A stretch of DNA of 64,000 nucleotides from assembly GCA_030272155.1 (NCBI GenBank), contig CP126206.1, positions 186,001 to 250,000 on the forward strand. Direction: 5' to 3'. Below are positions 9,277-39,019 of this stretch, one piece after another. Source of the stretch: Tetradesmus obliquus. Its lineage: Eukaryota > Chlorophyta > Chlorophyceae > Sphaeropleales > Scenedesmaceae. Numbering within the stretch: the stretch's first letter is position 1; each line of letters opens with the position of its first letter. Both the position numbers and the translations under genes were made by a program. The notes under the pieces are model-generated. The model searched no databases, was not told where the DNA came from, and saw only the letters and a list, made by a program, of their open reading frames with translations.

Positions 9277-9346
9277 CTGCAGAGAGATGGCGGTCAGCTC
9301 CTCTGCTGTTCTGTCAACGGCGCGGCTGCCAGCGTGATTCTGTTAC

Positions 9347-10067
9347 CAGCTGGGCATGGTACAAATGTAGCGAACAAGTGGCCTACATATAAATGTCAAG
9401 CTTTCAACGACGAATCTAAATCAATTTGAGCTGTTAGCAGTGGCACAGTGTGCTGCAAGAAAAGTGCTAAAACACGTTGCCCTGAAGTGCCCCGACTCGG
9501 CTGTTACATATGTTAACTTGCGCTGTAGAGTGTTGCTGTGGGTGCTGCTGCCTGCAACATGTTTTGATGTGTAATGTAATTCTTCTGGGCTTCCCTTGCT
9601 GGCTGATCAGGCACTGCAGTTCTGGTGTGCCAAGTGCCCTGCCGCTGCTGTTGCGCTCTGCTGCTTGGCGCTGTGCGCTGCACATACAGTTTCAACTGTC
9701 ATATCTGTTACATAGTGCGCAACACCGCTTCAGGCCCACCGGCAGCTGCTGCGCGCGTGCAGCTAGTGTGGCTGCACAGAGTTTGTTGAGGACTAGTATT
9801 CTACACAGTTTCCTGCAAACATCCTTCTTGTGTGATCAAGGCGAATTCTGGAGCTCAAAATTACTAGCAGTTTGGAGCTGCTGCTGCTGGCAGGTGAGGC
9901 CCTGCTGTGCAGTTGGGATGCAAGCAAACCAAAGCAGCAGCACTGGCAGCTGTGCCTTACTGTGCCTGCCACATACAGCAGGTTGCTATGCCAGCATGGC
10001 TGTCTGCTTGCAAGCTGTGTTGATTTGTTGCAAAATGCAGATGCTGCGTTTGTACCATGCCCAGCTG
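9347..10067 (+). mobile_element. 721-bp TIR segment, copy 1
   Basis: The ends are inverted repeats: 19 perfect bases (CAGCTGGGCATGGTACAAA) and 24 of 26 overall. No transposase is encoded. It may be a non-autonomous element or the terminal domain of the larger transposon. Coding-like segments occur on the plus strand, for example NQFELLAVAQCAARKVLK near 9420-9480 and ALQFWCAKCPAAAVALCCLA after an acceptor near 9610, but no complete gene could be built. Confidence 0.75.
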
Positions 10068-11130
10068 AGACTGTAATTGCATGCCAGCCTTTGCTGCAGC
10101 AGTTCTTAGCCTGCACTGCATCCCTTCTGTTGCTGTTCCTGGACTTGGTGCCTGAAGTGCACACCTACCTTTTTATGCTATGGCTGATGTGCTCCTGCTG
10201 CTGCTGGGTATGCAGCTGATTTTACTGCGGCAGTAGCACTGTTTGCAATCTATGATATCTGCCTGGGCAGGAGCAGCAGCAGCAGCAGACGACAGGAAAC
10301 GTTACAGCTATGTGTGCTTTGAATCACGGTGGCATGTGCTTTTCAACTGCAGTTGTTGGTGGGCGTGACAGCAGCAGCATGTGCCAGCAGGTGCCTCACT
10401 GCTGCTACCTAATTTTTTTGCGAAGGCTTTCAGTACAGCGCTGTGTTCAACGTCGTTTAATGTTCATTCCAAATTGTTTACAGGTGCTGCAGCAACGCGA
10501 TCGAGCTGCAGTGCTCTGGACATCCGTGTTGACCCGTCAGGCTCACCTGCAACGTGGGCTTGCGAGGGCCCTTCAGGATTGGTTTTCTGCCTCAACCAAA
10601 GGTACGTTGCATAATGTGTCGACGATGATGATTTGGCAGCGTGGCAGCTGTGTGGCTCGGAGCAGGCTTGTTTCAGGGCACCTTTCCGTCTTGAAGTTCT
10701 TCACCATACCGCAGTTTATTTCGGCTCGAGCCATGCTTAAATCAATCATCAAATATAAAAGTTAATTTACCGCAAGGTTTCTTGCAGGCTCCGTGCATAA
10801 AGCTTGGCAGGCCAACAGTCGTCACAACTCACGCGAGTGACAGCAGCAGGAGCCATGTTCAAGAGCTACGAGCGTAGTTGAATTATGCCAGGAATTTTTC
10901 CGTTACATTCGGCAATTCAGCATGACTGCAAATGCCTGTATGTGAAATGGCCACCAAGTGCCTTGCTGCCTTGCAGCAGTTGTTTGAAGCAGGAACCACT
11001 CCTGACAAGTCTGAGCACCAAAGCACAACATCCACATGTATTTTACTCATACCATAAGCTTCTGAACATGCCATTTTGTTCCCACACTCGCTCTCAGGTG
11101 AACACCAGGAAGTAACCACCCTACAGCAGC

Positions 11131-12625
11131 ATGGTGCCAGCACCTCCCAAGCCCCGGGCGGTGCGAACATGCAGGACGGCGACAAGCGCAGGTGCCCTCA
11201 AACAGGTGAGCTCAAGGGCTCTCTGAGTGACACCCTGTGCACTGCTGGCTAGCCATCTTGCATGCAGCTGACAGCCACAATCCCTACATGCCATGCAGCA
11301 GCACAACAGCAGACTCAGCGCTGGTCTTTCCTGGGGTAGTCGCCAGCAGTGCCGCGGCGCTGCTTCCCGTCTCGGCACACACAAAGACTCCTCTTGCGGC
11401 TGCGCACCATGTTCCACAAATCTGGCAGCTTCAATACATCAGCCATGACAGATGCAGCTGTGATCTTCATAAAGGTGTTGTACAGGCCGTGCTGCAGGTC
11501 TCGCGGCTTCACATCAGCACCACCCAGCTGGCAGCTGTTATACAAGTAGTTGCGGAAGGCTGCTTTGAGGCTGCCAAATGCATGTTCAATGGGCTTGTTG
11601 AAATCTGGGGAGTAGGGTGCAAAGTGCAGCAGTTGATCTTCATTGATGCCACCTGCAACCAACATCTGTAGGCCATCCTTCCCCAGGTGAACACTTGGGT
11701 TGTCAAAGATGTACAGCGGCGTAGTGCCGCGCTGCGCCTGCTGTTGGTTGGCTATGTCTTTGATCTCCATCATGCAGTGAACAAACTCCAGCTGAGTCAT
11801 GCTCTTGGCCTGCTGGGTTGGTTTGTCCTTCAACTGCAGGTGCAAGAATTGCCGGATTGGCAGCGCGCAGCCTTGTTAGCAGCGCAGGAGCGCAACGCAG
11901 CGGTGTGGATGGATGCGATGGGACGCTTCTACATCAGGCTCAGTGCAGACAAGGTCAGATACATCACCAAGTCTATGAGGGGGCAGAGATTGTTCTGGGG
12001 CTTGACTGGCTGCTTGCCAGGTGTGCAGCACTTCAAGTTCTGCGCGCCGCGTGCAGTCGCCACAGCAGCAGCGCTTCAGTGCAAGATGTGTGCATGTGTG
12101 CTGGCTGATATGGTTGGCACATGCATGGGCTACATGCACACAAGCGAGGAGCAGCTGGTGTGCATGCTGTACTGGTTAGGCACCAGCAGCAGTATGTGTG
12201 CTCAGGTAGCAGTGGACTGGTGGGATGGGCGGATTGATTTCCTCCATGCACAGCACAACATGCTGATTCAAGCTGATGGCTCATGTCATGACAAGGGTTA
12301 TTACAGCAGCAGCAGGCAGCTGGTGCTGGAGCGCGACTTTGAGTTCTGCGCTGCAGCATATGACAACTGGCTGCAGCCAGGGGGCAGTGTGCTGCGCGTG
12401 AGCACGCGCGGATGTGACATGCACCAATCCTTGCACATTGGTTTCCAGCTTGCTGCTGCAGGTGGTGTCATTGTACTGTCACCAAGTTACTCTGCTGTTA
12501 TGTTCACAGCAGAGGACGGGCAGCGCTGCAGCTTCACTACAGCACTAAAAAAAGCACTGCGGGACTGTTACTACACAGTACAGCAGGGCTGGCATGTCTT
12601 TCAATGGCAGGCGCCTGCGCAGTAG
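11131..12625 (+). CDS. Putative PD-(D/E)XK-like nuclease nested in the transposase gene, unit 1
   Basis: Exon 1 (11131-11205, 25 codons from ATG) ends at GTGAGC and joins in phase 0 to exon 2 (11840-12625), giving 286 aa. Exon 2 lies wholly inside the transposase intron on the opposite strand; in turn the intron of this gene contains transposase exon 2. The C-terminal half reads DGRIDFLHAQHNMLIQADGS then CH, RQLVLERD and SVLRVSTRGCD. This resembles Vsr/DUF559-type PD-(D/E)XK nucleases: Asp in IDF (D158), an [E/Q]xDG motif (Q169-G172) with following His (H175), a later RD, then VLR. Gln replaces the usual Glu. A CKMC pair and other cysteines near residues 93-109 may bind metal. Family assignment is inference from motif order. 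An alternative phase-1 chain of exons (10977-11037 joined to 11098-11205) also exists upstream, so the N-terminus is uncertain. Confidence 0.55.
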
Positions 12626-13518
12626 CAGCGCACACTCACCATGTACGGTACATTGAGGTTGCCAACATGGTCCTTGTTGTCTGTTGTGCCGGTGACAAAC
12701 TTGCAGTAGACGGGCCCGTGCACAGCGTTGACGGCGCAGACAAAGTGCAACTTGACCGGCTCTGCGTCCTTGCCCTTGCGCATCCATTTGCATGGCAGCA
12801 CAGCATGCACGTTTTCATCGTGTGCATCACAATAGACCTTGACGGAGCCGCCTGCCAGGTCTGACATCCAGAATTTGCACTCATCAATGAAATATATGCG
12901 CTGCAGCATGTCGGGGTCACTTTGGTACTTCTGCCACAGCGCCGCAGCTGCTGCCTTTCGCCTTTGTTTCTGTATCTTTGTCAAGTCCAGCTTCACATCT
13001 ATTCTCCTGCGCACCAGGTCGGGGTCAGCCCATTTCATGTACTTCAGCAGTCTCTTGGGTGTGATGTTGTAGTCAGTGCACAGCTGGCGCAGTGTGTCAT
13101 TTTCCTGACATGCGACTTCGATTGAAGTCCACCACACGTGCACATCAACCTTTCTCTTTGATTCTGCAGATGGGTAGGCCTTTACCACCTTGCCAGCCTT
13201 GAATATTGTGCTGGCATGGAAGGCGACAGCATGTGGGACATTTGAGGGCCTGCCGCCATGCTTGGGTGTAGCCACTGTGCCGTTTGCTGTGAAGTTCTTG
13301 TGATGAAGTTTGCAGAACCGGTTCAGGTCCCCGTGTACCTCCTTGGCGTAGTCAGGGTACTGCTCTCTGTAATAATATGCGGGCGTAAACTTTTCGTCAG
13401 CTGTGGTCAAAGCCATTATCACACACACCACCGCCGCCACCCTCATGGCCGTGGTGCTGCGGTTGCTCTTCCATCCTGAAGGGTGCTTGCGCACCATGGA
13501 CAGCCCCCCTGCAGGCAT
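11315..13518 (-). CDS. Tc1/mariner/IS630-like DDE transposase, unit 1
   Basis: Exon 1 (12640-13518, 293 codons) ends at GTGAGT and joins in phase 0 to exon 2 (11315-11833), giving 465 aa. The catalytic core is visible: first Asp in YFIDECKFW (D212), second in YIFDNPSVH (D337), Glu in SPDFNKPIEHAFGSLK (E376), giving a DD38E spacing. The LLHFAPYSPDFN stretch is typical of the DDE_3 fold. Residues 140-200 (TLRQLCTDYNITPKRLLKYM) look like helix-turn-helix DNA-binding material. By family, it cuts and pastes the transposon at its terminal repeats. The 806-bp intron holds the second exon of the opposite-strand nuclease gene. The start MPAGG is the first ATG in frame; a later Met (residue 8 or 25) is possible. 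Confidence 0.85.
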
Positions 13519-13626
13519 GAATCCAAAACATATGGATATGTTAGCTGTGCTTCTAGCAGCAGTGTGAACAGAAGTAACTGGTCAGGTCAAACAACAGCCT
13601 GCGGCATCATGGAGTTTGACCGGTCT

Positions 13627-13629
13627 CAG
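13627..13629. other. CAG footprint at junction of bodies 1 and 2
   Basis: Where other junctions carry the 721-bp segment CAGCTGGG...CCCAGCTG, this junction has only CAG between GGTCT and AGACTG. A three-base remnant of a terminal repeat is what a Tc1-like staggered excision would leave; a hairpin-mediated deletion would also fit. Confidence 0.6.
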
Positions 13630-14692
13630 AGACTGTAATTGCATGCCAGCCTTTGCTGCAGCAGTTCTTAGCCTGCACTGCATCCCTTCTGTTGCTGTTC
13701 CTGGACTTGGTGCCTGAAGTGCACACCTACCTTTTTATGCTATGGCTGATGTGCTCCTGCTGCTGCTGGGTATGCAGCTGATTTTACTGCGGCAGTAGCA
13801 CTGTTTGCAATCTATGATATCTGCCTGGGCAGGAGCAGCAGCAGCAGCAGACGACAGGAAACGTTACAGCTATGTGTGCTTTGAATCACGGTGGCATGTG
13901 CTTTTCAACTGCAGTTGTTGGTGGGCGTGACAGCAGCAGCATGTGCCAGCAGGTGCCTCACTGCTGCTACCTAATTTTTTTGCGAAGGCTTTCAGTACAG
14001 CGCTGTGTTCAACGTCGTTTAATGTTCATTCCAAATTGTTTACAGGTGCTGCAGCAACGCGATCGAGCTGCAGTGCTCTGGACATCCGTGTTGACCCGTC
14101 AGGCTCACCTGCAACGTGGGCTTGCGAGGGCCCTTCAGGATTGGTTTTCTGCCTCAACCAAAGGTACGTTGCATAATGTGTCGACGATGATGATTTGGCA
14201 GCGTGGCAGCTGTGTGGCTCGGAGCAGGCTTGTTTCAGGGCACCTTTCCGTCTTGAAGTTCTTCACCATACCGCAGTTTATTTCGGCTCGAGCCATGCTT
14301 AAATCAATCATCAAATATAAAAGTTAATTTACCGCAAGGTTTCTTGCAGGCTCCGTGCATAAAGCTTGGCAGGCCAACAGTCGTCACAACTCACGCGAGT
14401 GACAGCAGCAGGAGCCATGTTCAAGAGCTACGAGCGTAGTTGAATTATGCCAGGAATTTTTCCGTTACATTCGGCAATTCAGCATGACTGCAAATGCCTG
14501 TATGTGAAATGGCCACCAAGTGCCTTGCTGCCTTGCAGCAGTTGTTTGAAGCAGGAACCACTCCTGACAAGTCTGAGCACCAAAGCACAACATCCACATG
14601 TATTTTACTCATACCATAAGCTTCTGAACATGCCATTTTGTTTCCACACTCGCTCTCAGGTGAACACCAGGAAGTAACCACCCTACAGCAGC

Positions 14693-16187
14693 ATGGTGCC
14701 AGCACCTCCCAAGCCCCGGGCGGTGCGAACATGCAGGACGGCGACAAGCGCAGGTGCCCTCAAACAGGTGAGCTCAAGGGCTCTCTGAGTGACACCCTGT
14801 GCACTGCTGGCTAGCCATCTTGCATGCAGCTGACAGCCACAATCCCTACATGCCATGCAGCAGCACAACAGCAGACTCAGCGCTGGTCTTTCCTGGGGTA
14901 GTCGCCAGCAGTGCCGCGGCGCTGCTTCCCGTCTCGGCACACACAAAGACTCCTCTTGCGGCTGCGCACCATGTTCCACAAATCTGGCAGCTTCAATACA
15001 TCAGCCATGACAGATGCAGCTGTGATCTTCATAAAGGTGTTGTACAGGCCGTGCTGCAGGTCTCGCGGCTTCACATCAGCACCACCCAGCTGGCAGCTGT
15101 TATACAAGTAGTTGCGGAAGGCTGCTTTGAGGCTGCCAAATGCATGTTCAATGGGCTTGTTGAAATCTGGGGAGTAGGGTGCAAAGTGCAGCAGTTGATC
15201 TTCATTGATGCCACCTGCAACCAACATCTGTAGGCCATCCTTCCCCAGGTGAACACTTGGGTTGTCAAAGATGTACAGCGGCGTAGTGCCGCGCTGCGCC
15301 TGCTGTTGGTTGGCTATGTCTTTGATCTCCATCATGCAGTGAACAAACTCCAGCTGAGTCATGCTCTTGGCCTGCTGGGTTGGTTTGTCCTTCAACTGCA
15401 GGTGCAAGAATTGCCGGATTGGCAGCGCGCAGCCTTGTTAGCAGCGCAGGAGCGCAACGCAGCGGTGTGGATGGATGCGATGGGACGCTTCTACATCAGG
15501 CTCAGTGCAGACAAGGTCAGATACATCACCAAGTCTATGAGGGGGCAGAGATTGTTCTGGGGCTTGACTGGCTGCTTGCCAGGTGTGCAGCACTTCAAGT
15601 TCTGCGCGCCGCGTGCAGTCGCCACAGCAGCAGCGCTTCAGTGCAAGATGTGTGCATGTGTGCTGGCTGATATGGTTGGCACATGCATGGGCTACATGCA
15701 CACAAGCGAGGAGCAGCTGGTGTGCATGCTGTACTGGTTAGGCACCAGCAGCAGTATGTGTGCTCAGGTAGCAGTGGACTGGTGGGATGGGCGGATTGAT
15801 TTCCTCCATGCACAGCACAACATGCTGATTCAAGCTGATGGCTCATGTCATGACAAGGGTTATTACAGCAGCAGCAGGCAGCTGGTGCTGGAGCGCGACT
15901 TTGAGTTCTGCGCTGCAGCATATGACAACTGGCTGCAGCCAGGGGGCAGTGTGCTGCGCGTGAGCACGCGCGGATGTGACATGCACCAATCCTTGCACAT
16001 TGGTTTCCAGCTTGCTGCTGCAGGTGGTGTCATTGTACTGTCACCAAGTTACTCTGCTGTTATGTTCACAGCAGAGGACGGGCAGCGCTGCAGCTTCACT
16101 ACAGCACTAAAAAAAGCACTGCGGGACTGTTACTACACAGTACAGCAGGGCTGGCATGTCTTTCAATGGCAGGCGCCTGCGCAGTAG
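14693..16187 (+). CDS. Putative nested nuclease, unit 2 (exons 14693-14767 and 15402-16187)
   Basis: The predicted protein appears identical to the unit 1 copy, including the IDF and QADG motifs and the shared CTGCAG acceptor (15396-15401). Confidence 0.5.
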
Positions 16188-17080
16188 CAGCGCACACTCA
16201 CCATGTACGGTACATTGAGGTTGCCAACATGGTCCTTGTTGTCTGTTGTGCCGGTGACAAACTTGCAGTAGACGGGCCCGTGCACAGCGTTGACGGCGCA
16301 GACAAAGTGCAACTTGACCGGCTCTGCGTCCTTGCCCTTGCGCATCCATTTGCATGGCAGCACAGCATGCACGTTTTCATCGTGTGCATCACAATAGACC
16401 TTGACGGAGCCGCCTGCCAGGTCTGACATCCAGAATTTGCACTCATCAATGAAATATATGCGCTGCAGCATGTCGGGGTCACTTTGGTACTTCTGCCACA
16501 GCGCCGCAGCTGCTGCCTTTCGCCTTTGTTTCTGTATCTTTGTCAAGTCCAGCTTCACATCTATTCTCCTGCGCACCAGGTCGGGGTCAGCCCATTTCAT
16601 GTACTTCAGCAGTCTCTTGGGTGTGATGTTGTAGTCAGTGCACAGCTGGCGCAGTGTGTCATTTTCCTGACATGCGACTTCGATTGAAGTCCACCACACG
16701 TGCACATCAACCTTTCTCTTTGATTCTGCAGATGGGTAGGCCTTTACCACCTTGCCAGCCTTGAATATTGTGCTGGCATGGAAGGCGACAGCATGTGGGA
16801 CATTTGAGGGCCTGCCGCCATGCTTGGGTGTAGCCACTGTGCCGTTTGCTGTGAAGTTCTTGTGATGAAGTTTGCAGAACCGGTTCAGGTCCCCGTGTAC
16901 CTCCTTGGCGTAGTCAGGGTACTGCTCTCTGTAATAATATGCGGGCGTAAACTTTTCGTCAGCTGTGGTCAAAGCCATTATCACACACACCACCGCCGCC
17001 ACCCTCATGGCCGTGGTGCTGCGGTTGCTCTTCCATCCTGAAGGGTGCTTGCGCACCATGGACAGCCCCCCTGCAGGCAT
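14877..17080 (-). CDS. DDE transposase, unit 2 (exons 16202-17080 and 14877-15395)
   Basis: The predicted protein appears identical to the unit 1 copy, with D212, D337 and E376 intact and the same intron boundaries. It should be as competent as unit 1, although the unit lacks the flanking 721-bp segments that carry the long inverted repeats. Confidence 0.8.
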
Positions 17081-17188
17081 GAATCCAAAACATATGGATA
17101 TGTTAGCTGTGCTTCTAGCAGCAGTGTGAACAGAAGTAACTGGTCAGGTCAAACAACAGCCTGCGGCATCATGGAGTTTGACCGGTCT

Positions 17189-17191
17189 CAG
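17189..17191. other. CAG footprint at junction of bodies 2 and 3
   Basis: It is the same three-base junction as at 13627-13629. The identical scar at two junctions suggests one excision followed by duplication of the scarred unit, or a constrained excision mechanism. Confidence 0.6.
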
Positions 17192-18254
17192 AGACTGTAA
17201 TTGCATGCCAGCCTTTGCTGCAGCAGTTCTTAGCCTGCACTGCATCCCTTCTGTTGCTGTTCCTGGACTTGGTGCCTGAAGTTCACACCTACCTTTTCAT
17301 GCTATGGCTGATGTGCTCCTGCTGCTGCTGGGTATGCAGCTGATTTTACTGCGGCAGTAGCACTGTTTGCAATATATGATATCTGCCTGGGCAGGAGCAG
17401 CAGCAGCAGCAGACAACAGGAAACGTTACAGCTATGTGTGCTTTGAATCACGGTGGCATGTGTTTTTCAACAGCAGTTGTTGGTGGGCGTGACAGCAGCA
17501 GCATGTGCCAGCAGGTGCCTCACTGCTGCTACCTAATTTTTTTGCGAAGGCTTTCAGTACAGCGCTGTGTTTAACGCCGTTTAATGTTCATTCCAAATTG
17601 TTTACAGGTGCTGCAGCAACGCGATCGAGCTGCAGTGCTCTGGACATCCGTGTTGACCCGTCAGGCTCACCTGCAACGTGGGCTTGCGAGGGCCCTTCAG
17701 GATTGGTTTTCTGCCTCAACCAAAGGTACGTTGCATAATGTGTCGACGATGATGATTTGGCAGCGTGGCAGCTGTGTGGCTCGGAGCAGGCTTGTTTCAG
17801 GGCACCTTTCCGTCTTGAAGTTCTTCACCATACCGCAGTTTATTTCGGCTCGAGCCATGCTTAAATCAATCATCAAATATAAAAGTTAATTTACCGCAAG
17901 GTTTCTTGCAGGCTCCGTGCATAAAGCTTGGCAGGCCAACAGTCGTCACAACTCACGCGAGTGACAGCAGCAGGAGCCATGTTCAAGAGCTACGAGCGTA
18001 GTTGAATTATGCCAGGAATTTTTCCGTTACATTCGGCAATTCAGCATGACTGCAAATGCCTGTATGTGAAATGGCCACCAAGTGCCTTGCTGCCTTGCAG
18101 CAGTTGTTTGAAGCAGGAACCACTCCTGACAAGTCTGAGCACCAAAGCACAACATCCACATGTATTTTACTCATACCATAAGCTTCTGAACATGCCATTT
18201 TGTTCCCACACTCGCTCTCAGGTGAACACCAGGAAGTAACCACCCTACAGCAGC

Positions 18255-19749
18255 ATGGTGCCAGCACCTCCCAAGCCCCGGGCGGTGCGAACATGCAGGA
18301 CGGCGACAAGCGCAGGTGCCCTCAAACAGGTGAGCTCAAGGGCTCTCTGAGTGACACCCTGTGCACTGCTGGCTAGCCATCTTGCATGCAGCTGACAGCC
18401 ACAATCCCTACATGCCATGCAGCAGCACAACAGCAGACTCAGCGCTGGTCTTTCCTGGGGTAGTCGCCAGCAGTGCCGCGGCGCTGCTTCCCGTCTCGGC
18501 ACACACAAAGACTCCTCTTGCGGCTGCGCACCATGTTCCACAAATCTGGCAGCTTCAATACATCAGCCATGACAGATGCAGCTGTGATCTTCATAAAGGT
18601 GTTGTACAGGCCGTGCTGCAGGTCTCGCGGCTTCACATCAGCACCACCCAGCTGGCAGCTGTTATACAAGTAGTTGCGGAAGGCTGCTTTGAGGCTGCCA
18701 AATGCATGTTCAATGGGCTTGTTGAAATCTGGGGAGTAGGGTGCAAAGTGCAGCAGTTGATCTTCATTGATGCCACCTGCAACCAACATCTGTAGGCCAT
18801 CCTTCCCCAGGTGAACACTTGGGTTGTCAAAGATGTACAGCGGCGTAGTGCCGCGCTGCGCCTGCTGTTGGTTGGCTATGTCTTTGATCTCCATCATGCA
18901 GTGAACAAACTCCAGCTGAGTCATGCTCTTGGCCTGCTGGGTTGGTTTGTCCTTCAACTGCAGGTGCAAGAATTGCCGGATTGGCAGCGCGCAGCCTTGT
19001 TAGCAGCGCAGGAGCGCAACGCAGCGGTGTGGATGGATGCGATGGGACGCTTCTACATCAGGCTCAGTGCAGACAAGGTCAGATACATCACCAAGTCTAT
19101 GAGGGGGCAGAGATTGTTCTGGGGCTTGACTGGCTGCTTGCCAGGTGTGCAGCACTTCAAGTTCTGCGCGCCGCGTGCAGTCGCCACAGCAGCAGCGCTT
19201 CAGTGCAAGATGTGTGCATGTGTGCTGGCTGATATGGTTGGCACATGCATGGGCTACATGCACACAAGCGAGGAGCAGCTGGTGTGCATGCTGTACTGGT
19301 TAGGCACCAGCAGCAGTATGTGTGCTCAGGTAGCAGTGGACTGGTGGGATGGGCGGATTGATTTCCTCCATGCACAGCACAACATGCTGATTCAAGCTGA
19401 TGGCTCATGTCATGACAAGGGTTATTACAGCAGCAGCAGGCAGCTGGTGCTGGAGCGCGACTTTGAGTTCTGCGCTGCAGCATATGACAACTGGCTGCAG
19501 CCAGGGGGCAGTGTGCTGCGCGTGAGCACGCGCGGATGTGACATGCACCAATCCTTGCACATTGGTTTCCAGCTTGCTGCTGCAGGTGGTGTCATTGTAC
19601 TGTCACCAAGTTACTCTGCTGTTATGTTCACAGCAGAGGACGGGCAGCGCTGCAGCTTCACTACAGCACTAAAAAAAGCACTGCGGGACTGTTACTACAC
19701 AGTACAGCAGGGCTGGCATGTCTTTCAATGGCAGGCGCCTGCGCAGTAG
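18255..19749 (+). CDS. Putative nested nuclease, unit 3 (exons 18255-18329 and 18964-19749)
   Basis: The predicted protein appears identical to the unit 1 copy. The splice sites and the shared CTGCAG palindrome (18958-18963) are preserved. Confidence 0.5.
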
Positions 19750-20642
19750 CAGCGCACACTCACCATGTACGGTACATTGAGGTTGCCAACATGGTCCTTG
19801 TTGTCTGTTGTGCCGGTGACAAACTTGCAGTAGACGGGCCCGTGCACAGCGTTGACGGCGCAGACAAAGTGCAACTTGACCGGCTCTGCGTCCTTGCCCT
19901 TGCGCATCCATTTGCATGGCAGCACAGCATGCACGTTTTCATCGTGTGCATCACAATAGACCTTGACGGAGCCGCCTGCCAGGTCTGACATCCAGAATTT
20001 GCACTCATCAATGAAATATATGCGCTGCAGCATGTCGGGGTCACTTTGGTACTTCTGCCACAGCGCCGCAGCTGCTGCCTTTCGCCTTTGTTTCTGTATC
20101 TTTGTCAAGTCCAGCTTCACATCTATTCTCCTGCGCACCAGGTCGGGGTCAGCCCATTTCATGTACTTCAGCAGTCTCTTGGGTGTGATGTTGTAGTCAG
20201 TGCACAGCTGGCGCAGTGTGTCATTTTCCTGACATGCGACTTCGATTGAAGTCCACCACACGTGCACATCAACCTTTCTCTTTGATTCTGCAGATGGGTA
20301 GGCCTTTACCACCTTGCCAGCCTTGAATATTGTGCTGGCATGGAAGGCGACAGCATGTGGGACATTTGAGGGCCTGCCGCCATGCTTGGGTGTAGCCACT
20401 GTGCCGTTTGCTGTGAAGTTCTTGTGATGAAGTTTGCAGAACCGGTTCAGGTCCCCGTGTACCTCCTTGGCGTAGTCAGGGTACTGCTCTCTGTAATAAT
20501 ATGCGGGCGTAAACTTTTCGTCAGCTGTGGTCAAAGCCATTATCACACACACCACCGCCGCCACCCTCATGGCCGTGGTGCTGCGGTTGCTCTTCCATCC
20601 TGAAGGGTGCTTGCGCACCATGGACAGCCCCCCTGCAGGCAT
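18439..20642 (-). CDS. DDE transposase, unit 3 (exons 19764-20642 and 18439-18957)
   Basis: The predicted protein appears identical to unit 1, with intact catalytic residues. The diverged tract of this unit lies outside the gene. Confidence 0.8.
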
Positions 20643-20750
20643 GAATCCAAAACATATGGATATGTTAGCTGTGCTTCTAGCAGCAGTGTGAACAGAAGTA
20701 ACTGGTCAGGTCAAACAACAGCCTGCGGCATCATGGAGTTTGACCGGTCT

Positions 20751-21471
20751 CAGCTGGGCATGGTACAAATGTAGCGAACAAGTGGCCTACATATAAATGT
20801 CAAGCTTTCAACGACGAATCTAAATCAATTTGAGCTGTTAGCAGTGGCACAGTGTGCTGCAAGAAAAGTGCTAAAACACGTTGCCCTGAAGTGCCCCGAC
20901 TCGGCTGTTACATATGTTAACTTGCGCTGTAGAGTGTTGCTGTGGGTGCTGCTGCCTGCAACATGTTTTGATGTGTAATGTAATTCTTCTGGGCTTCCCT
21001 TGCTGGCTGATCAGGCACTGCAGTTCTGGTGTGCCAAGTGCCCTGCCGCTGCTGTTGCGCTCTGCTGCTTGGCGCTGTGCGCTGCACATACAGTTTCAAC
21101 TGTCATATCTGTTACATAGTGCGCAACACCGCTTCAGGCCCACCGGCAGCTGCTGCGCGCGTGCAGCTAGTGTGGCTGCACAGAGTTTGTTGAGGACTAG
21201 TATTCTACACAGTTTCCTGCAAACATCCTTCTTGTGTGATCAAGGCGAATTCTGGAGCTCAAAATTACTAGCAGTTTGGAGCTGCTGCTGCTGGCAGGTG
21301 AGGCCCTGCTGTGCAGTTGGGATGCAAGCAAACCAAAGCAGCAGCACTGGCAGCTGTGCCTTACTGTGCCTGCCACATACAGCAGGTTGCTATGCCAGCA
21401 TGGCTGTCTGCTTGCAAGCTGTGTTGATTTGTTGCAAAATGCAGATGCTGCGTTTGTACCATGCCCAGCTG
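20751..21471 (+). mobile_element. 721-bp TIR segment, copy 2
   Basis: It matches copy 1 in length and ends. It sits between body 3 (ending GGTCT) and body 4 (starting AGACTG), restoring the 4280-bp spacing. Confidence 0.75.
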
Positions 21472-22534
21472 AGACTGTAATTGCATGCCAGCCTTTGCTG
21501 CAGCAGTTCTTAGCCTGCACTGCATCCCTTCTGTTGCTGTTCCTGGACTTGGTGCCTGAAGTGCACACCTACCTTTTTATGCTATGGCTGATGTGCTCCT
21601 GCTGCTGCTGGGTATGCAGCTGATTTTACTGCGGCAGTAGCACTGTTTGCAATCTATGATATCTGCCTGGGCAGGAGCAGCAGCAGCAGCAGACGACAGG
21701 AAACGTTACAGCTATGTGTGCTTTGAATCACGGTGGCATGTGCTTTTCAACTGCAGTTGTTGGTGGGCGTGACAGCAGCAGCATGTGCCAGCAGGTGCCT
21801 CACTGCTGCTACCTAATTTTTTTGCGAAGGCTTTCAGTACAGCGCTGTGTTCAACGTCGTTTAATGTTCATTCCAAATTGTTTACAGGTGCTGCAGCAAC
21901 GCGATCGAGCTGCAGTGCTCTGGACATCCGTGTTGACCCGTCAGGCTCACCTGCAACGTGGGCTTGCGAGGGCCCTTCAGGATTGGTTTTCTGCCTCAAC
22001 CAAAGGTACGTTGCATAATGTGTCGACGATGATGATTTGGCAGCGTGGCAGCTGTGTGGCTCGGAGCAGGCTTGTTTCAGGGCACCTTTCCGTCTTGAAG
22101 TTCTTCACCATACCGCAGTTTATTTCGGCTCGAGCCATGCTTAAATCAATCATCAAATATAAAAGTTAATTTACCGCAAGGTTTCTTGCAGGCTCCGTGC
22201 ATAAAGCTTGGCAGGCCAACAGTCGTCACAACTCACGCGAGTGACAGCAGCAGGAGCCATGTTCAAGAGCTACGAGCGTAGTTGAATTATGCCAGGAATT
22301 TTTCCGTTACATTCGGCAATTCAGCATGACTGCAAATGCCTGTATGTGAAATGGCCACCAAGTGCCTTGCTGCCTTGCAGCAGTTGTTTGAAGCAGGAAC
22401 CACTCCTGACAAGTCTGAGCACCAAAGCACAACATCCACATGTATTTTACTCATACCATAAGCTTCTGAACATGCCATTTTGTTCCCACACTCGCTCTCA
22501 GGTGAACACCAGGAAGTAACCACCCTACAGCAGC

Positions 22535-24029
22535 ATGGTGCCAGCACCTCCCAAGCCCCGGGCGGTGCGAACATGCAGGACGGCGACAAGCGCAGGTGCC
22601 CTCAAACAGGTGAGCTCAAGGGCTCTCTGAGTGACACCCTGTGCACTGCTGGCTAGCCATCTTGCATGCAGCTGACAGCCACAATCCCTACATGCCATGC
22701 AGCAGCACAACAGCAGACTCAGCGCTGGTCTTTCCTGGGGTAGTCGCCAGCAGTGCCGCGGCGCTGCTTCCCGTCTCGGCACACACAAAGACTCCTCTTG
22801 CGGCTGCGCACCATGTTCCACAAATCTGGCAGCTTCAATACATCAGCCATGACAGATGCAGCTGTGATCTTCATAAAGGTGTTGTACAGGCCGTGCTGCA
22901 GGTCTCGCGGCTTCACATCAGCACCACCCAGCTGGCAGCTGTTATACAAGTAGTTGCGGAAGGCTGCTTTGAGGCTGCCAAATGCATGTTCAATGGGCTT
23001 GTTGAAATCTGGGGAGTAGGGTGCAAAGTGCAGCAGTTGATCTTCATTGATGCCACCTGCAACCAACATCTGTAGGCCATCCTTCCCCAGGTGAACACTT
23101 GGGTTGTCAAAGATGTACAGCGGCGTAGTGCCGCGCTGCGCCTGCTGTTGGTTGGCTATGTCTTTGATCTCCATCATGCAGTGAACAAACTCCAGCTGAG
23201 TCATGCTCTTGGCCTGCTGGGTTGGTTTGTCCTTCAACTGCAGGTGCAAGAATTGCCGGATTGGCAGCGCGCAGCCTTGTTAGCAGCGCAGGAGCGCAAC
23301 GCAGCGGTGTGGATGGATGCGATGGGACGCTTCTACATCAGGCTCAGTGCAGACAAGGTCAGATACATCACCAAGTCTATGAGGGGGCAGAGATTGTTCT
23401 GGGGCTTGACTGGCTGCTTGCCAGGTGTGCAGCACTTCAAGTTCTGCGCGCCGCGTGCAGTCGCCACAGCAGCAGCGCTTCAGTGCAAGATGTGTGCATG
23501 TGTGCTGGCTGATATGGTTGGCACATGCATGGGCTACATGCACACAAGCGAGGAGCAGCTGGTGTGCATGCTGTACTGGTTAGGCACCAGCAGCAGTATG
23601 TGTGCTCAGGTAGCAGTGGACTGGTGGGATGGGCGGATTGATTTCCTCCATGCACAGCACAACATGCTGATTCAAGCTGATGGCTCATGTCATGACAAGG
23701 GTTATTACAGCAGCAGCAGGCAGCTGGTGCTGGAGCGCGACTTTGAGTTCTGCGCTGCAGCATATGACAACTGGCTGCAGCCAGGGGGCAGTGTGCTGCG
23801 CGTGAGCACGCGCGGATGTGACATGCACCAATCCTTGCACATTGGTTTCCAGCTTGCTGCTGCAGGTGGTGTCATTGTACTGTCACCAAGTTACTCTGCT
23901 GTTATGTTCACAGCAGAGGACGGGCAGCGCTGCAGCTTCACTACAGCACTAAAAAAAGCACTGCGGGACTGTTACTACACAGTACAGCAGGGCTGGCATG
24001 TCTTTCAATGGCAGGCGCCTGCGCAGTAG
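22535..24029 (+). CDS. Putative nested nuclease, unit 4 (exons 22535-22609 and 23244-24029)
   Basis: It appears identical to the unit 1 copy. The deletion that breaks the transposase of this unit lies beyond the nuclease stop codon, so the nuclease remains intact where its partner does not. Confidence 0.5.
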
Positions 24030-24921
24030 CAGCGCACACTCACCATGTACGGTACATTGAGGTTGCCAACATGGTCCTTGTTGTCTGTTGTGCCGGTGAC
24101 AAACTTGCAGTAGACGGGCCCGTGCACAGCGTTGACGGCGCAGACAAAGTGCAACTTGACCGGCTCTGCGTCCTTGCCCTTGCGCATCCATTTGCATGGC
24201 AGCACAGCATGCACGTTTTCATCGTGTGCATCACAATAGACCTTGACGGAGCCGCCTGCAGGTCTGACATCCAGAACTTGCACTCATCAATGAAATATAT
24301 GCGCTGCAGCATGTCGGGGTCACTTTGGTACTTCTGCCACAGCGCCGCAGCTGCTGCCTTTCGCCTTTGTTTCTGTATCTTTGTCAAGTCCAGCTTCACA
24401 TCTATTCTCCTGCGCACCAGGTCGGGGTCAGCCCATTTCATGTACTTCAGCAGTCTCTTGGGTGTGATGTTGTAGTCAGTGCACAGCTGGCGCAGTGTGT
24501 CATTTTCCTGACATGCGACTTCGATTGAAGTCCACCACACGTGCACATCAACCTTTCTCTTTGATTCTGCAGATGGGTAGGCCTTTACCACCTTGCCAGC
24601 CTTGAATATTGTGCTGGCATGGAAGGCGACAGCATGTGGGACATTTGAGGGCCTGCCGCCATGCTTGGGTGTAGCCACTGTGCCGTTTGCTGTGAAGTTC
24701 TTGTGATGAAGTTTGCAGAACCGGTTCAGGTCCCCGTGTACCTCCTTGGCGTAGTCAGGGTACTGCTCTCTGTAATAATATGCGGGCGTAAACTTTTCGT
24801 CAGCTGTGGTCAAAGCCATTATCACACACACCACCGCCGCCACCCTCATGGCCGTGGTGCTGCGGTTGCTCTTCCATCCTGAAGGGTGCTTGCGCACCAT
24901 GGACAGCCCCCCTGCAGGCAT
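22719..24921 (-). pseudogene. Frameshifted DDE transposase, unit 4
   Basis: A one-base deletion near 24259 (GCCTGCAGG where other copies read GCCTGCCAGG) shifts the frame just after the first catalytic motif, following WMSDL at about residue 221. The frame then continues out of register, so the second Asp and the Glu in exon 2 (22719-23237) would be lost. All other coding sequence matches the intact copies, so the break is recent. Confidence 0.8.
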
Positions 24922-25029
24922 GAATCCAAAACATATGGATATGTTAGCTGTGCTTCTAGCAGCAGTGTGAACAGAAGTAACTGGTCAGGTCAAACAACAG
25001 CCTGCGGCATCATGGAGTTTGACCGGTCT

Positions 25030-25750
25030 CAGCTGGGCATGGTACAAACGCAGCATCTGCATTTTGCAACAAATCAACACAGCTTGCAAGCAGACAGCCA
25101 TGCTGGCATAGCAACCTGCTGTATGTGGCAGGCACAGTAAGGCACAGCTGCCAGTGCTGCTGCTTTGGTTTGCTTGCATCCCAACTGCACAGCAGGGCCT
25201 CACCTGCCAGCAGCAGCAGCTCCAAACTGCTAGTAATTTTGAGCTCCAGAATTCGCCTTGATCACACAAGAAGGATGTTTGCAGGAAACTGTGTAGAATA
25301 CTAGTCCTCAACAAACTCTGTGCAGCCACACTAGCTGCACGCGCGCAGCAGCTGCCGGTGGGCCTGAAGCGGTGTTGCGCACTATGTAACAGATATGACA
25401 GTTGAAACTGTATGTGCAGCGCACAGCGCCAAGCAGCAGAGCGCAACAGCAGCGGCAGGGCACTTGGCACACCAGAACTGCAGTGCCTGATCAGCCAGCA
25501 AGGGAAGCCCAGAAGAATTACATTACACATCAAAACATGTTGCAGGCAGCAGCACCCACAGCAACACTCTACAGCGCAAGTTAACATATGTAACAGCCGA
25601 GTCGGGGCACTTCAGGGCAACGTGTTTTAGCACTTTTCTTGCAGCACACTGTGCCACTGCTAACAGCTCAAATTGATTTAGATTCGTCGTTGAAAGCTTG
25701 ACATTTATATGTAGGCCACTTGTTCGCTACATTTGTACCATGCCCAGCTG
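25030..25750 (-). mobile_element. 721-bp TIR segment, copy 3 (inverted)
   Basis: It is the reverse complement of copies 1 and 2 and forms the left edge of the inverted block. It joins body 4 at CAG, so body 4 is followed by the normally right-hand end of the segment. Confidence 0.75.
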
Positions 25751-25858
25751 AGACCGGTCAAACTCCATGATGCCGCAGGCTGTTGTTTGACCTGACCAGT
25801 TACTTCTGTTCACACTGCTGCTAGAAGCACAGCTAACATATCCATATGTTTTGGATTC

Positions 25859-28062
25859 ATGCCTGCAGGGGGGCTGTCCATGGTGCGCAAGCACCCTTCA
25901 GGATGGAAGAGCAACCGCAGCACCACGGCCATGAGGGTGGCGGCGGTGGTGTGTGTGATAATGGCTTTGACCACAGCTGACGAAAAGTTTACGCCCGCAT
26001 ATTATTACAGAGAGCAGTACCCTGACTACGCCAAGGAGGTACACGGGGACCTGAACCGGTTCTGCAAACTTCATCACAAGAACTTCACAGCAAACGGCAC
26101 AGTGGCTACACCCAAGCATGGCGGCAGGCCCTCAAATGTCCCACATGCTGTCGCCTTCCATGCCAGCACAATATTCAAGGCTGGCAAGGTGGTAAAGGCC
26201 TACCCATCTGCAGAATCAAAGAGAAAGGTTGATGTGCACGTGTGGTGGACTTCAATCGAAGTCGCATGTCAGGAAAATGACACACTGCGCCAGCTGTGCA
26301 CTGACTACAACATCACACCCAAGAGACTGCTGAAGTACATGAAATGGGCTGACCCCGACCTGGTGCGCAGGAGAATAGATGTGAAGCTGGACTTGACAAA
26401 GATACAGAAACAAAGGCGAAAGGCAGCAGCTGCGGCGCTGTGGCAGAAGTACCAAAGTGACCCCGACATGCTGCAGCGCATATATTTCATTGATGAGTGC
26501 AAATTCTGGATGTCAGACCTGGCAGGCGGCTCCGTCAAGGTCTATTGTGATGCACACGATGAAAACGTGCATGCTGTGCTGCCATGCAAATGGATGCGCA
26601 AGGGCAAGGACGCAGAGCCGGTCAAGTTGCACTTTGTCTGCGCCGTCAACGCTGTGCACGGGCCCGTCTACTGCAAGTTTGTCACCGGCACAACAGACAA
26701 CAAGGACCATGTTGGCAACCTCAATGTACCGTACATGGTGAGTGTGCGCTGCTACTGCGCAGGCGCCTGCCATTGAAAGACATGCCAGCCCTGCTGTACT
26801 GTGTAGTAACAGTCCCGCAGTGCTTTTTTTAGTGCTGTAGTGAAGCTGCAGCGCTGCCCGTCCTCTGCTGTGAACATAACAGCAGAGTAACTTGGTGACA
26901 GTACAATGACACCACCTGCAGCAGCAAGCTGGAAACCAATGTGCAAGGATTGGTGCATGTCACATCCGCGCGTGCTCACGCGCAGCACACTGCCCCCTGG
27001 CTGCAGCCAGTTGTCATATGCTGCAGCGCAGAACTCAAAGTCGCGCTCCAGCACCAGCTGCCTGCTGCTGCTGTAATAACCCTTGTCATGACATGAGCCA
27101 TCAGCTTGAATCAGCATGTTGTGCTGTGCATGGAGGAAATCAATCCGCCCATCCCACCAGTCCACTGCTACCTGAGCACACATACTGCTGCTGGTGCCTA
27201 ACCAGTACAGCATGCACACCAGCTGCTCCTCGCTTGTGTGCATGTAGCCCATGCATGTGCCAACCATATCAGCCAGCACACATGCACACATCTTGCACTG
27301 AAGCGCTGCTGCTGTGGCGACTGCACGCGGCGCGCAGAACTTGAAGTGCTGCACACCTGGCAAGCAGCCAGTCAAGCCCCAGAACAATCTCTGCCCCCTC
27401 ATAGACTTGGTGATGTATCTGACCTTGTCTGCACTGAGCCTGATGTAGAAGCGTCCCATCGCATCCATCCACACCGCTGCGTTGCGCTCCTGCGCTGCTA
27501 ACAAGGCTGCGCGCTGCCAATCCGGCAATTCTTGCACCTGCAGTTGAAGGACAAACCAACCCAGCAGGCCAAGAGCATGACTCAGCTGGAGTTTGTTCAC
27601 TGCATGATGGAGATCAAAGACATAGCCAACCAACAGCAGGCGCAGCGCGGCACTACGCCGCTGTACATCTTTGACAACCCAAGTGTTCACCTGGGGAAGG
27701 ATGGCCTACAGATGTTGGTTGCAGGTGGCATCAATGAAGATCAACTGCTGCACTTTGCACCCTACTCCCCAGATTTCAACAAGCCCATTGAACATGCATT
27801 TGGCAGCCTCAAAGCAGCCTTCCGCAACTACTTGTATAACAGCTGCCAGCTGGGTGGTGCTGATGTGAAGCCGCGAGACCTGCAGCACGGCCTGTACAAC
27901 ACCTTTATGAAGATCACAGCTGCATCTGTCATGGCTGATGTATTGAAGCTGCCAGATTTGTGGAACATGGTGCGCAGCCGCAAGAGGAGTCTTTGTGTGT
28001 GCCGAGACGGGAAGCAGCGCCGCGGCACTGCTGGCGACTACCCCAGGAAAGACCAGCGCTGA
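25859..28062 (+). CDS. DDE transposase, unit 5 (exons 25859-26737 and 27544-28062)
   Basis: This intact copy in the inverted unit is the easiest to read: exon 1 ends ...TACATG before GTGAGT, and exon 2 begins after CACCTGCAG. Protein and catalytic triad appear identical to unit 1. Confidence 0.85.
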
Positions 28063-28246
28063 GTCTGCTGTTGTGCTGCTGCATGGCATGTAGGGATTGT
28101 GGCTGTCAGCTGCATGCAAGATGGCTAGCCAGCAGTGCACAGGGTGTCACTCAGAGAGCCCTTGAGCTCACCTGTTTGAGGGCACCTGCGCTTGTCGCCG
28201 TCCTGCATGTTCGCACCGCCCGGGGCTTGGGAGGTGCTGGCACCAT
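26752..28246 (-). CDS. Putative nested nuclease, unit 5 (exons 28172-28246 and 26752-27537)
   Basis: This is the inverted copy of the nested gene, appearing identical in protein to unit 1. The shared palindromic acceptor is at 27538-27543. Confidence 0.5.
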
Positions 28247-29309
28247 GCTGCTGTAGGGTGGTTACTTCCTGGTGTTCACCTGAGAGCGAGTGTGGGAACA
28301 AAATGGCATGTTCAGAAGCTTATGGTATGAGTAAAATACATGTGGATGTTGTGCTTTGGTGCTCAGACTTGTCAGGAGTGGTTCCTGCTTCAAACAACTG
28401 CTGCAAGGCAGCAAGGCACTTGGTGGCCATTTCACATACAGGCATTTGCAGTCATGCTGAATTGCCGAATGTAACGGAAAAATTCCTGGCATAATTCAAC
28501 TACGCTCGTAGCTCTTGAACATGGCTCCTGCTGCTGTCACTCGCGTGAGTTGTGACGACTGTTGGCCTGCCAAGCTTTATGCACGGAGCCTGCAAGAAAC
28601 CTTGCGGTAAATTAACTTTTATATTTGATGATTGATTTAAGCATGGCTCGAGCCGAAATAAACTGCGGTATGGTGAAGAACTTCAAGACGGAAAGGTGCC
28701 CTGAAACAAGCCTGCTCCGAGCCACACAGCTGCCACGCTGCCAAATCATCATCGTCGACACATTATGCAACGTACCTTTGGTTGAGGCAGAAAACCAATC
28801 CTGAAGGGCCCTCGCAAGCCCACGTTGCAGGTGAGCCTGACGGGTCAACACGGATGTCCAGAGCACTGCAGCTCGATCGCGTTGCTGCAGCACCTGTAAA
28901 CAATTTGGAATGAACATTAAACGACGTTGAACACAGCGCTGTACTGAAAGCCTTCGCAAAAAAATTAGGTAGCAGCAGTGAGGCACCTGCTGGCACATGC
29001 TGCTGCTGTCACGCCCACCAACAACTGCAGTTGAAAAGCACATGCCACCGTGATTCAAAGCACACATAGCTGTAACGTTTCCTGTCGTCTGCTGCTGCTG
29101 CTGCTCCTGCCCAGGCAGATATCATAGATTGCAAACAGTGCTACTGCCGCAGTAAAATCAGCTGCATACCCAGCAGCAGCAGGAGCACATCAGCCATAGC
29201 ATAAAAAGGTAGGTGTGCACTTCAGGCACCAAGTCCAGGAACAGCAACAGAAGGGATGCAGTGCAGGCTAAGAACTGCTGCAGCAAAGGCTGGCATGCAA
29301 TTACAGTCT

Positions 29310-30030
29310 CAGCTGGGCATGGTACAAACGCAGCATCTGCATTTTGCAACAAATCAACACAGCTTGCAAGCAGACAGCCATGCTGGCATAGCAACCTGCT
29401 GTATGTGGCAGGCACAGTAAGGCACAGCTGCCAGTGCTGCTGCTTTGGTTTGCTTGCATCCCAACTGCACAGCAGGGCCTCACCTGCCAGCAGCAGCAGC
29501 TCCAAACTGCTAGTAATTTTGAGCTCCAGAATTCGCCTTGATCACACAAGAAGGATGTTTGCAGGAAACTGTGTAGAATACTAGTCCTCAACAAACTCTG
29601 TGCAGCCACACTAGCTGCACGCGCGCAGCAGCTGCCGGTGGGCCTGAAGCGGTGTTGCGCACTATGTAACAGATATGACAGTTGAAACTGTATGTGCAGC
29701 GCACAGCGCCAAGCAGCAGAGCGCAACAGCAGCGGCAGGGCACTTGGCACACCAGAACTGCAGTGCCTGATCAGCCAGCAAGGGAAGCCCAGAAGAATTA
29801 CATTACACATCAAAACATGTTGCAGGCAGCAGCACCCACAGCAACACTCTACAGCGCAAGTTAACATATGTAACAGCCGAGTCGGGGCACTTCAGGGCAA
29901 CGTGTTTTAGCACTTTTCTTGCAGCACACTGTGCCACTGCTAACAGCTCAAATTGATTTAGATTCGTCGTTGAAAGCTTGACATTTATATGTAGGCCACT
30001 TGTTCGCTACATTTGTACCATGCCCAGCTG
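29310..30030 (-). mobile_element. 721-bp TIR segment, copy 4 (inverted)
   Basis: It forms the right edge of the inverted block and abuts body 6 (starting AGACTG at 30031). Confidence 0.75.
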
Positions 30031-31093
30031 AGACTGTAATTGCATGCCAGCCTTTGCTGCAGCAGTTCTTAGCCTGCACTGCATCCCTTCTGTTGCTGTT
30101 CCTGGACTTGGTGCCTGAAGTGCACACCTACCTTTTTATGCTATGGCTGATGTGCTCCTGCTGCTGCTGGGTATGCAGCTGATTTTACTGCGGCAGTAGC
30201 ACTGTTTGCAATCTATGATATCTGCCTGGGCAGGAGCAGCAGCAGCAGCAGACGACAGGAAACGTTACAGCTATGTGTGCTTTGAATCACGGTGGCATGT
30301 GCTTTTCAACTGCAGTTGTTGGTGGGCGTGACAGCAGCAGCATGTGCCAGCAGGTGCCTCACTGCTGCTACCTAATTTTTTTGCGAAGGCTTTCAGTACA
30401 GCGCTGTGTTCAACGTCGTTTAATGTTCATTCCAAATTGTTTACAGGTGCTGCAGCAACGCGATCGAGCTGCAGTGCTCTGGACATCCGTGTTGACCCGT
30501 CAGGCTCACCTGCAACGTGGGCTTGCGAGGGCCCTTCAGGATTGGTTTTCTGCCTCAACCAAAGGTACGTTGCATAATGTGTCGACGATGATGATTTGGC
30601 AGCGTGGCAGCTGTGTGGCTCGGAGCAGGCTTGTTTCAGGGCACCTTTCCGTCTTGAAGTTCTTCACCATACCGCAGTTTATTTCGGCTCGAGCCATGCT
30701 TAAATCAATCATCAAATATAAAAGTTAATTTACCGCAAGGTTTCTTGCAGGCTCCGTGCATAAAGCTTGGCAGGCCAACAGTCGTCACAACTCACGCGAG
30801 TGACAGCAGCAGGAGCCATGTTCAAGAGCTACGAGCGTAGTTGAATTATGCCAGGAATTTTTCCGTTACATTCGGCAATTCAGCATGACTGCAAATGCCT
30901 GTATGTGAAATGGCCACCAAGTGCCTTGCTGCCTTGCAGCAGTTGTTTGAAGCAGGAACCACTCCTGACAAGTCTGAGCACCAAAGCACAACATCCACAT
31001 GTATTTTACTCATACCATAAGCTTCTGAACATGCCATTTTGTTCCCACACTCGCTCTCAGGTGAACACCAGGAAGTAACCACCCTACAGCAGC

Positions 31094-32588
31094 ATGGTGC
31101 CAGCACCTCCCAAGCCCCGGGCGGTGCGAACATGCAGGACGGCGACAAGCGCAGGTGCCCTCAAACAGGTGAGCTCAAGGGCTCTCTGAGTGACACCCTG
31201 TGCACTGCTGGCTAGCCATCTTGCATGCAGCTGACAGCCACAATCCCTACATGCCATGCAGCAGCACAACAGCAGACTCAGCGCTGGTCTTTCCTGGGGT
31301 AGTCGCCAGCAGTGCCGCGGCGCTGCTTCCCGTCTCGGCACACACAAAGACTCCTCTTGCGGCTGCGCACCATGTTCCACAAATCTGGCAGCTTCAATAC
31401 ATCAGCCATGACAGATGCAGCTGTGATCTTCATAAAGGTGTTGTACAGGCCGTGCTGCAGGTCTCGCGGCTTCACATCAGCACCACCCAGCTGGCAGCTG
31501 TTATACAAGTAGTTGCGGAAGGCTGCTTTGAGGCTGCCAAATGCATGTTCAATGGGCTTGTTGAAATCTGGGGAGTAGGGTGCAAAGTGCAGCAGTTGAT
31601 CTTCATTGATGCCACCTGCAACCAACATCTGTAGGCCATCCTTCCCCAGGTGAACACTTGGGTTGTCAAAGATGTACAGCGGCGTAGTGCCGCGCTGCGC
31701 CTGCTGTTGGTTGGCTATGTCTTTGATCTCCATCATGCAGTGAACAAACTCCAGCTGAGTCATGCTCTTGGCCTGCTGGGTTGGTTTGTCCTTCAACTGC
31801 AGGTGCAAGAATTGCCGGATTGGCAGCGCGCAGCCTTGTTAGCAGCGCAGGAGCGCAACGCAGCGGTGTGGATGGATGCGATGGGACGCTTCTACATCAG
31901 GCTCAGTGCAGACAAGGTCAGATACATCACCAAGTCTATGAGGGGGCAGAGATTGTTCTGGGGCTTGACTGGCTGCTTGCCAGGTGTGCAGCACTTCAAG
32001 TTCTGCGCGCCGCGTGCAGTCGCCACAGCAGCAGCGCTTCAGTGCAAGATGTGTGCATGTGTGCTGGCTGATATGGTTGGCACATGCATGGGCTACATGC
32101 ACACAAGCGAGGAGCAGCTGGTGTGCATGCTGTACTGGTTAGGCACCAGCAGCAGTATGTGTGCTCAGGTAGCAGTGGACTGGTGGGATGGGCGGATTGA
32201 TTTCCTCCATGCACAGCACAACATGCTGATTCAAGCTGATGGCTCATGTCATGACAAGGGTTATTACAGCAGCAGCAGGCAGCTGGTGCTGGAGCGCGAC
32301 TTTGAGTTCTGCGCTGCAGCATATGACAACTGGCTGCAGCCAGGGGGCAGTGTGCTGCGCGTGAGCACGCGCGGATGTGACATGCACCAATCCTTGCACA
32401 TTGGTTTCCAGCTTGCTGCTGCAGGTGGTGTCATTGTACTGTCACCAAGTTACTCTGCTGTTATGTTCACAGCAGAGGACGGGCAGCGCTGCAGCTTCAC
32501 TACAGCACTAAAAAAAGCACTGCGGGACTGTTACTACACAGTACAGCAGGGCTGGCATGTCTTTCAATGGCAGGCGCCTGCGCAGTAG
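31094..32588 (+). CDS. Putative nested nuclease, unit 6 (exons 31094-31168 and 31803-32588)
   Basis: It appears identical to the unit 1 copy; shared acceptor palindrome at 31797-31802. Confidence 0.5.
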
Positions 32589-33481: not shown

Positions 33482-33589
33482 GAATCCAAAACATATGGAT
33501 ATGTTAGCTGTGCTTCTAGCAGCAGTGTGAACAGAAGTAACTGGTCAGGTCAAACAACAGCCTGCGGCATCATGGAGTTTGACCGGTCT

Positions 33590-39016: not shown

Positions 39017-39019
39017 TAC

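Follow-up and report, generated by a model that had tools for sequence, protein, structure and literature searches.

This locus raises the question of what kind of mobile element carries, on opposite strands, two genes whose predicted exons lie in one another's introns, and of how such an element has come to be repeated in tandem. It is found in a stretch of 64,000 nucleotides of Tetradesmus obliquus (GCA_030272155.1, contig CP126206.1, positions 186,001-250,000 of the forward strand), hereafter the window, in a genome of 104.66 Mb and 17 contigs, where an initial annotation had described seven units of a transposon, each with a split DDE transposase gene on the minus strand and a putative nuclease gene on the plus strand. 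The reading favored here, to which a probability of about 0.6 is given, is that of a recently active, composite-like transposon of the form A-B-A, in which an internal region B is flanked by terminal repeats A, with a split IS630/Tc1-like transposase, a probable DUF559/Vsr-type endonuclease threaded through the transposase gene, and arrays formed by way of the direct copies of A.

The real unit of the family is terminal repeat, internal region and terminal repeat, and the seven units of the window belong to this family. The repeated unit is in two parts, the internal region B (3.56 kb, AGAC...GTCT) and the terminal repeat A (721-723 bp in most copies), which has inverted ends of its own (CAGCTGGGYATGGTACAAA). 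The array of the window is laid out as follows:

9344..9346, no strand, left target duplication TAC of the whole array
9347..39016, no strand, whole array, 6 A and 7 B in the order A B B B A B A- B- A- B A B A
9347..10067, plus strand, terminal repeat A of 721 bp, inverted ends CAGCTGGGCATGGTACAAA, 19 bp perfect and about 25 bp with 2 mismatches
10068..13626, plus strand, internal region B of unit 1 (AGAC...GTCT)
13627..13629, no strand, CAG remnant between units 1 and 2, where A is missing
17189..17191, no strand, CAG remnant between units 2 and 3
20751..21471, plus strand, terminal repeat A
25030..25750, minus strand, terminal repeat A, inverted
25751..29309, minus strand, internal region B of unit 5, inverted
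29310..30030, minus strand, terminal repeat A, inverted
33590..34310, plus strand, terminal repeat A
37870..39016, plus strand, last terminal repeat A, interrupted by a 422-bp insert at about 37914-38335
39017..39019, no strand, right target duplication TAC of the whole array

The 422-bp insert contains an open frame and has ATGTA-like repeats at its end; we take the frame to resemble the end of a non-long terminal repeat (non-LTR) reverse transcriptase. Genome-wide, the end sequence of A, allowing up to 2 mismatches, occurs 184 times in forward and 189 times in reverse orientation (reversed control, 0), and no complete solo A was found among 100 of these 373 end sequences (contigs 1, 3, 4 and part of 5). 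The relative orientation of A and B goes both ways, as in unit 5 of the window and at loci L012, L015 and L018, and in some arrays one A is inverted; otherwise B is flanked by long terminal direct repeats. The possibility that A is an LTR is ruled out by the 19-25 bp inverted ends together with both relative orientations of A and B, and also by the Pfam scans, which gave DDE_3 and DUF559 only.

Searches of the genome with three coding pieces placed copies of the element on at least 12 of the 17 contigs. All copies scored are 96-100% identical in protein (the best 123 of 473, 146 of 282 and 150 of 401 candidates), and further, more divergent copies may lie elsewhere in the genome. The 11 single copies examined at both ends all have the structure A-B-A, and ten of them stand between exact 3-bp target duplications (GGT, TCT, GCC, TCA, AGC, AAT, ATC, GCA, GGC and TAC), the duplication of L025 being inexact (TAT/TCT). 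Exact outer duplications also bound all six arrays examined at both ends, out of 13 counted: TAC in the window, ACA on contig C1, ATT on C3, GCT on C4, and on C5 ATC (1.16-1.27 Mb) and CAT (1.70-1.73 Mb), one of the arrays so examined measuring 111 kb. With exact duplications in six of six, each of these arrays therefore either grew in place from one insertion or entered as a multimer.

Spacings were scored in the 13 arrays of at least three copies, with at least 137 nuclease positions, isolated copies and one pair being excluded. Among the 124 spacings, 85 are A-B, 29 are B-B and 10 are of other kinds, inverted units included. The second half of the array G000:C12:3950011-4041990 shows mostly alternating spacings of 4280 and 3562 bp, like a higher-order repeat. 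Two spacings of exactly 10558 bp occur among the copies listed for G000:C16:894296-923318, which may reflect the amplification of a larger block or the presence of intervening copies outside the list.

Within the arrays, a B is succeeded by an A or immediately by the next B. The inner boundaries of A read GTCT/CAG and CTG/AGAC throughout, and each of the five B-B junctions read holds 3 nt, which are CAG in three cases (L003 and the two junctions of the window, which may be copies of one event) and CTG in two (L007 and L014). A CAG footprint is what Sleeping Beauty leaves, according to the available part of one report (PMC8151067). Since the 3-nt remnants are the ends of A and match this footprint, they point to the cutting out of A by a Tc1-type transposase; they were found at sites missing A and not at sites of whole-element excision. 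Of the 11 single insertions, seven have two identical A copies and three have copies 1-2 sites apart (16 differing sites plus gaps in L025), whereas the A copies compared between loci, or with the window, differ at 3-18 sites, a contrast which indicates that the paired ends are homogenised. Two old ends decaying independently would not yield such pairs; regeneration from one A would, and it would proceed by exchange or through an A-B circle. Two elements, L016 (a single insertion on C5) and L035 (in an array on C16), are defective in both genes through shared lesions, a stop in the transposase and the loss of one base in the plus frame. This suggests that an element already broken was mobilised in trans by proteins from another.

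The genes are carried by B, and in unit 1 their predicted parts are the following:

12640..13518, minus strand, transposase exon 1, 293 codons, including the first catalytic residue, D212
11834..12639, minus strand, predicted transposase intron, GTGAGT...CTGCAG, 806 bp
11315..11833, minus strand, transposase exon 2, catalytic D337 and E376, DDE_3
11131..11205, plus strand, putative first exon of the plus-strand gene
11206..11839, plus strand, proposed intron of the plus-strand gene, 634 bp
11840..12625, plus strand, main exon of the nuclease-like gene, DUF559 match at exon residues 132-164

The exon coordinates, the introns of 806 and 634 bp and the phase-0 junctions, all as given in the initial annotation, were confirmed in the sequence. 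On the minus strand, the joining of 13518-12640 to 11833-11315 gives a protein of 465 aa, with catalytic D212 in exon 1, D337 and E376 in exon 2, and 38 residues between the latter D and E (DD38E). Without the intron the catalytic triad falls in two frames, so that the intron is well motivated and a transposase split in this way is a credible prediction. The claim of a split DDE transposase is further supported by similarity to DDE_3 and IS630: the spliced protein matches Pfam DDE_3 at 2.9e-5 (under the gathering score, and with no other Pfam match), and exon 2 matches NCBIfam IS630 at 2.7e-4 (under the curated cut-off). Four of the five other DDE_3 matches in the genome (L029-L032) have no significant similarity to the element (best E 0.028). 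The transposase frame is intact in six of the seven window units, unit 4 being frameshifted as had been noted, and in 31 of 37 copies in the genome sample, from which L019 was left out and in which L025 was scored as broken solely for a lost stop codon. The minus donor, G/GTGAGT, is strong, and it and both acceptors are identical in all 38 aligned copies of the sample used for splice sites and selection (27 distinct sequences over the region, a count outside of which stands L019, truncated and stopping short of the plus donor). Such identity is weak evidence, because divergence among the 26 full copies compared does not exceed 4%.

On the plus strand, the phase-0 junction of exons 11131-11205 and 11840-12625 gives a frame of 286 aa, and the coordinates bear out the reciprocal placement that had been proposed, the plus exon lying within the transposase intron and transposase exon 2 within the plus intron. 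The main plus exon takes up nearly the whole distance between the transposase splice sites, leaving 6 bp at one end and 14 at the other, and the palindromic CTGCAG at 11834-11839 is the predicted acceptor on both strands. The plus donor, G/GTGAGC, is also strong and is identical in 36 of 37 copies, one differing at +6. It is unlikely that these are mutually interlocked spliced genes on opposite strands which share the one CTGCAG acceptor, such that the splicing of one RNA would mask that of the other and produce alternative expression states. If real, the interlocking would be unusual as a gene arrangement and would lead directly to a prediction on regulation, in which expression of the transposase or of the nuclease would mean transposition or, respectively, in-place growth by nuclease-induced exchange between paired ends. 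No reciprocally nested genes in a transposon were found in the literature as represented by titles and abstracts, mostly without subscription papers, and PMC8226300 and PMC7913693 contributed nothing more.

The first exon, as judged from the sequence, is putative and the weakest part of the plus-strand model. A three-exon model (10457-10601, 11098-11205 and 11847-12625) keeps the frame too, and an alternative in-frame start, ATG 11909 at residue 24, would give a simple nested gene of 238 aa within the transposase intron. Since the plus frame shows no purifying selection (see below) and the first exon is putative, it is possible, if doubtful, that the plus gene is intronless and lies wholly in the transposase intron, with exon 1 unused and the genes not interlocked. 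Such a gene would suit the open frame 11840-12625 with its in-frame ATG and the position of the DUF559-like core, far downstream of that ATG; it would leave without a role the strong donor at 11206 and the acceptor at 11839, as well as an island of low variation at 11098-11205, where 4 of 108 positions are variable versus 15 of 109 in 11206-11314 (Fisher p 0.014 for limits picked after looking; p 0.085 for the 75-bp exon 11131-11205 alone). The low variation is a mild hint of an exon at this place. Of the annotated plus-strand gene, then, the nuclease-like frame inside the transposase intron stands, and its first exon is in doubt, as two other models keep the frame.

The sole Pfam match of the plus-strand protein is DUF559, under the curated cut-off (E 0.25 for the window copy and 0.057 for the L013 copy), and a six-frame search of the genome with DUF559 gave six matches, all of them copies of the plus frame (best E 2.9, none over the cut-off). 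When a DUF559 profile built from 12 bacterial proteins (12 of 40 matches listed) was used in hmmsearch, the window copy scored 8.7 bits, exceeded by 1 of 20000 shuffles; 13 of the 19 variants of the plus-strand protein reached 10.4-10.8 bits, above every shuffle, and five others 8.6-8.9. DUF559 is kin to the Vsr-type endonucleases, with which the element's protein shares the motif DF-x(7)-(V/L)I(E/Q)xDGxxH followed by RD...G..VLR, differing from them in its much greater length and in scores below the curated cut-off. On these similarities the protein is a probable DUF559/Vsr-type endonuclease. Relatives were not found in viral contigs, bacterial and archaeal genomes or phages; plasmids gave one chance-level match, and PDB and PHROGs chance-level matches only. 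Vsr-like nucleases occur as homing enzymes, and the frame lies in the intron between the first and the second catalytic D, as would be expected if a nuclease gene with flanking intron sequence had invaded the transposase gene between its catalytic residues. A homing-type origin of this kind is very unlikely, given that the splice sites look spliceosomal, that exon 1, if real, falls outside the intron, and that no intronless relative of the transposase was found among the DDE_3 matches of the genome, in viral contigs or in bacterial and archaeal genomes.

Purifying selection in both frames had been named as a test of the initial annotation. In the 38 copies, there are signs of it in both transposase exons, with 19 silent, 21 replacement and 3 stop changes in exon 1 (ratio 0.41 of neutral, p 0.008) and 13 silent and 16 replacement changes in exon 2 (0.47 of neutral, p 0.026), and the test does not favor the annotation in the plus exon, where 11 silent, 47 replacement and 2 stop changes give a ratio of 1.59 of neutral. 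Several results weigh against the reading favored here. No correction for the number of frames tried was applied to the p-values of the transposase exons, and equally good values (p 0.0005 and 0.013) come from the plus frame whose third positions coincide with those of the transposase. The plus-strand nuclease frame shows no sign of recent purifying selection, in that the alleles of its main exon present in at least two copies comprise 3 silent, 25 replacement and 1 stop (silent deficit p 0.037), and a codon-usage score trained on the transposase does not set it apart, with 0.162 per codon versus 0.175 for a minus frame with 12 stops. As for the nuclease assignment, the L021 variant scores 7.4 bits in hmmsearch, under four shuffles, hhalign to DUF559 yields a probability of only 6.7% (P 0.005), the D of the IDF motif is replaced by N in 5 copies, and the E of the 12 DUF559 proteins is a Q here. 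Finally, a TA target duplication is normal in the IS630-Tc1-mariner group, as far as the available parts of two sources describe it (PMC8533490, PMC7386202). The element resembles the group so described in its DDE_3 similarity, its DD38E triad, its termini CAG..CTG and its 3-nt CAG/CTG junctions, and differs from it in 3-bp duplications that are varied and not TA, as well as in the long paired ends and the second gene. Target duplications of 3 bp are made by Zator elements.

These results also bear on the alternative that the plus frame is a remnant or arose by chance, a gene that never worked or no longer works, in an element consisting of a transposase with a long intron. This is rather unlikely. 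It is favored by the ratio in the plus exon, set against those in the transposase exons, by the preponderance of replacement alleles, and by the deepest pair (window and L013), in which the plus exon has 6 replacement changes and no change at any of its 167 silent sites. However, 263 stop-free codons inside an 806-bp intron arose in 2 of 1000 dinucleotide shuffles, and an open reading frame of 317 codons never arose in 500 shuffles of the complete unit; all seven window units keep the plus frame intact, as had been noted, as do 33 of the 37 copies, and 29 of the 37 have both genes intact; and the DUF559-like motif lies above nearly all shuffles. The plus exon of the deepest pair is 0.8% divergent, versus 7.8% in 10067-11130, and low divergence as a proof of constraint was dropped, the silent sites being unchanged too: with 0 of 167, a recent homogenisation of the tract explains it equally well. 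For the same reason the selection test is low-powered, and the sample is too young to condemn the plus frame.

The A-B-A architecture has one precedent that was found, KolobokP, an animal transposon in which a region INT lies between two long terminal direct repeats (LTDRs) of about 450 or about 660 bp (Kojima and Bao 2022, PMC9587614). According to the available text of that report, the LTDRs carry short inverted ends of their own, insertion makes short target duplications, (LTDR-INT)n-LTDR arrays occur with outer duplications and with INT-INT junctions from lost terminal repeats, and most families combine a transposase with a nuclease on the complementary strand, for which a role in promoting exchange between terminal repeats has been proposed (PMC9587614). 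The element shares with KolobokP, as there described, the long terminal direct repeats with inverted ends around B, the multimers with outer duplications (6 of 6 arrays) and the B-B junctions (5 read). It differs in its IS630-like transposase, with no C/DxxH seen by eye between D337 and E376, in having no match to a His-Me finger nuclease in Pfam or NCBIfam and only the weak one to DUF559, in the threading of the nuclease frame through the transposase gene, in both relative orientations of A and B, and in its host. Membership in KolobokP is ruled out by the types of transposase and nuclease, and no other paired-end DNA transposon was found in the same titles and abstracts.

Under the reading favored here, the transposase would bind the inverted ends of A. 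Use of the outermost A ends would move A-B-A as a whole and make the 3-bp target duplication, and use of the two ends of one A would cut that A out, leaving CAG or CTG. By means of the direct A repeats a single insertion would grow in place into (A-B)n-A arrays, through unequal exchange or an A-B circle, and the putative nuclease, by analogy with the proposal made for KolobokP, would likely cut in or at A and so promote exchange.

Elsewhere in the window, at 56012-56855, a 417-bp unit is present as two repeats at 98%, with GTCA runs.

If the reading is true, the paired-end, array-forming life style of KolobokP arose again with another transposase and another nuclease, and a second such case would allow the idea of nuclease-driven tandem amplification to be tested comparatively. 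The arrays, of which one extends over 111 kb within a single target duplication, are a clear natural case of a DNA transposon turning into a satellite.
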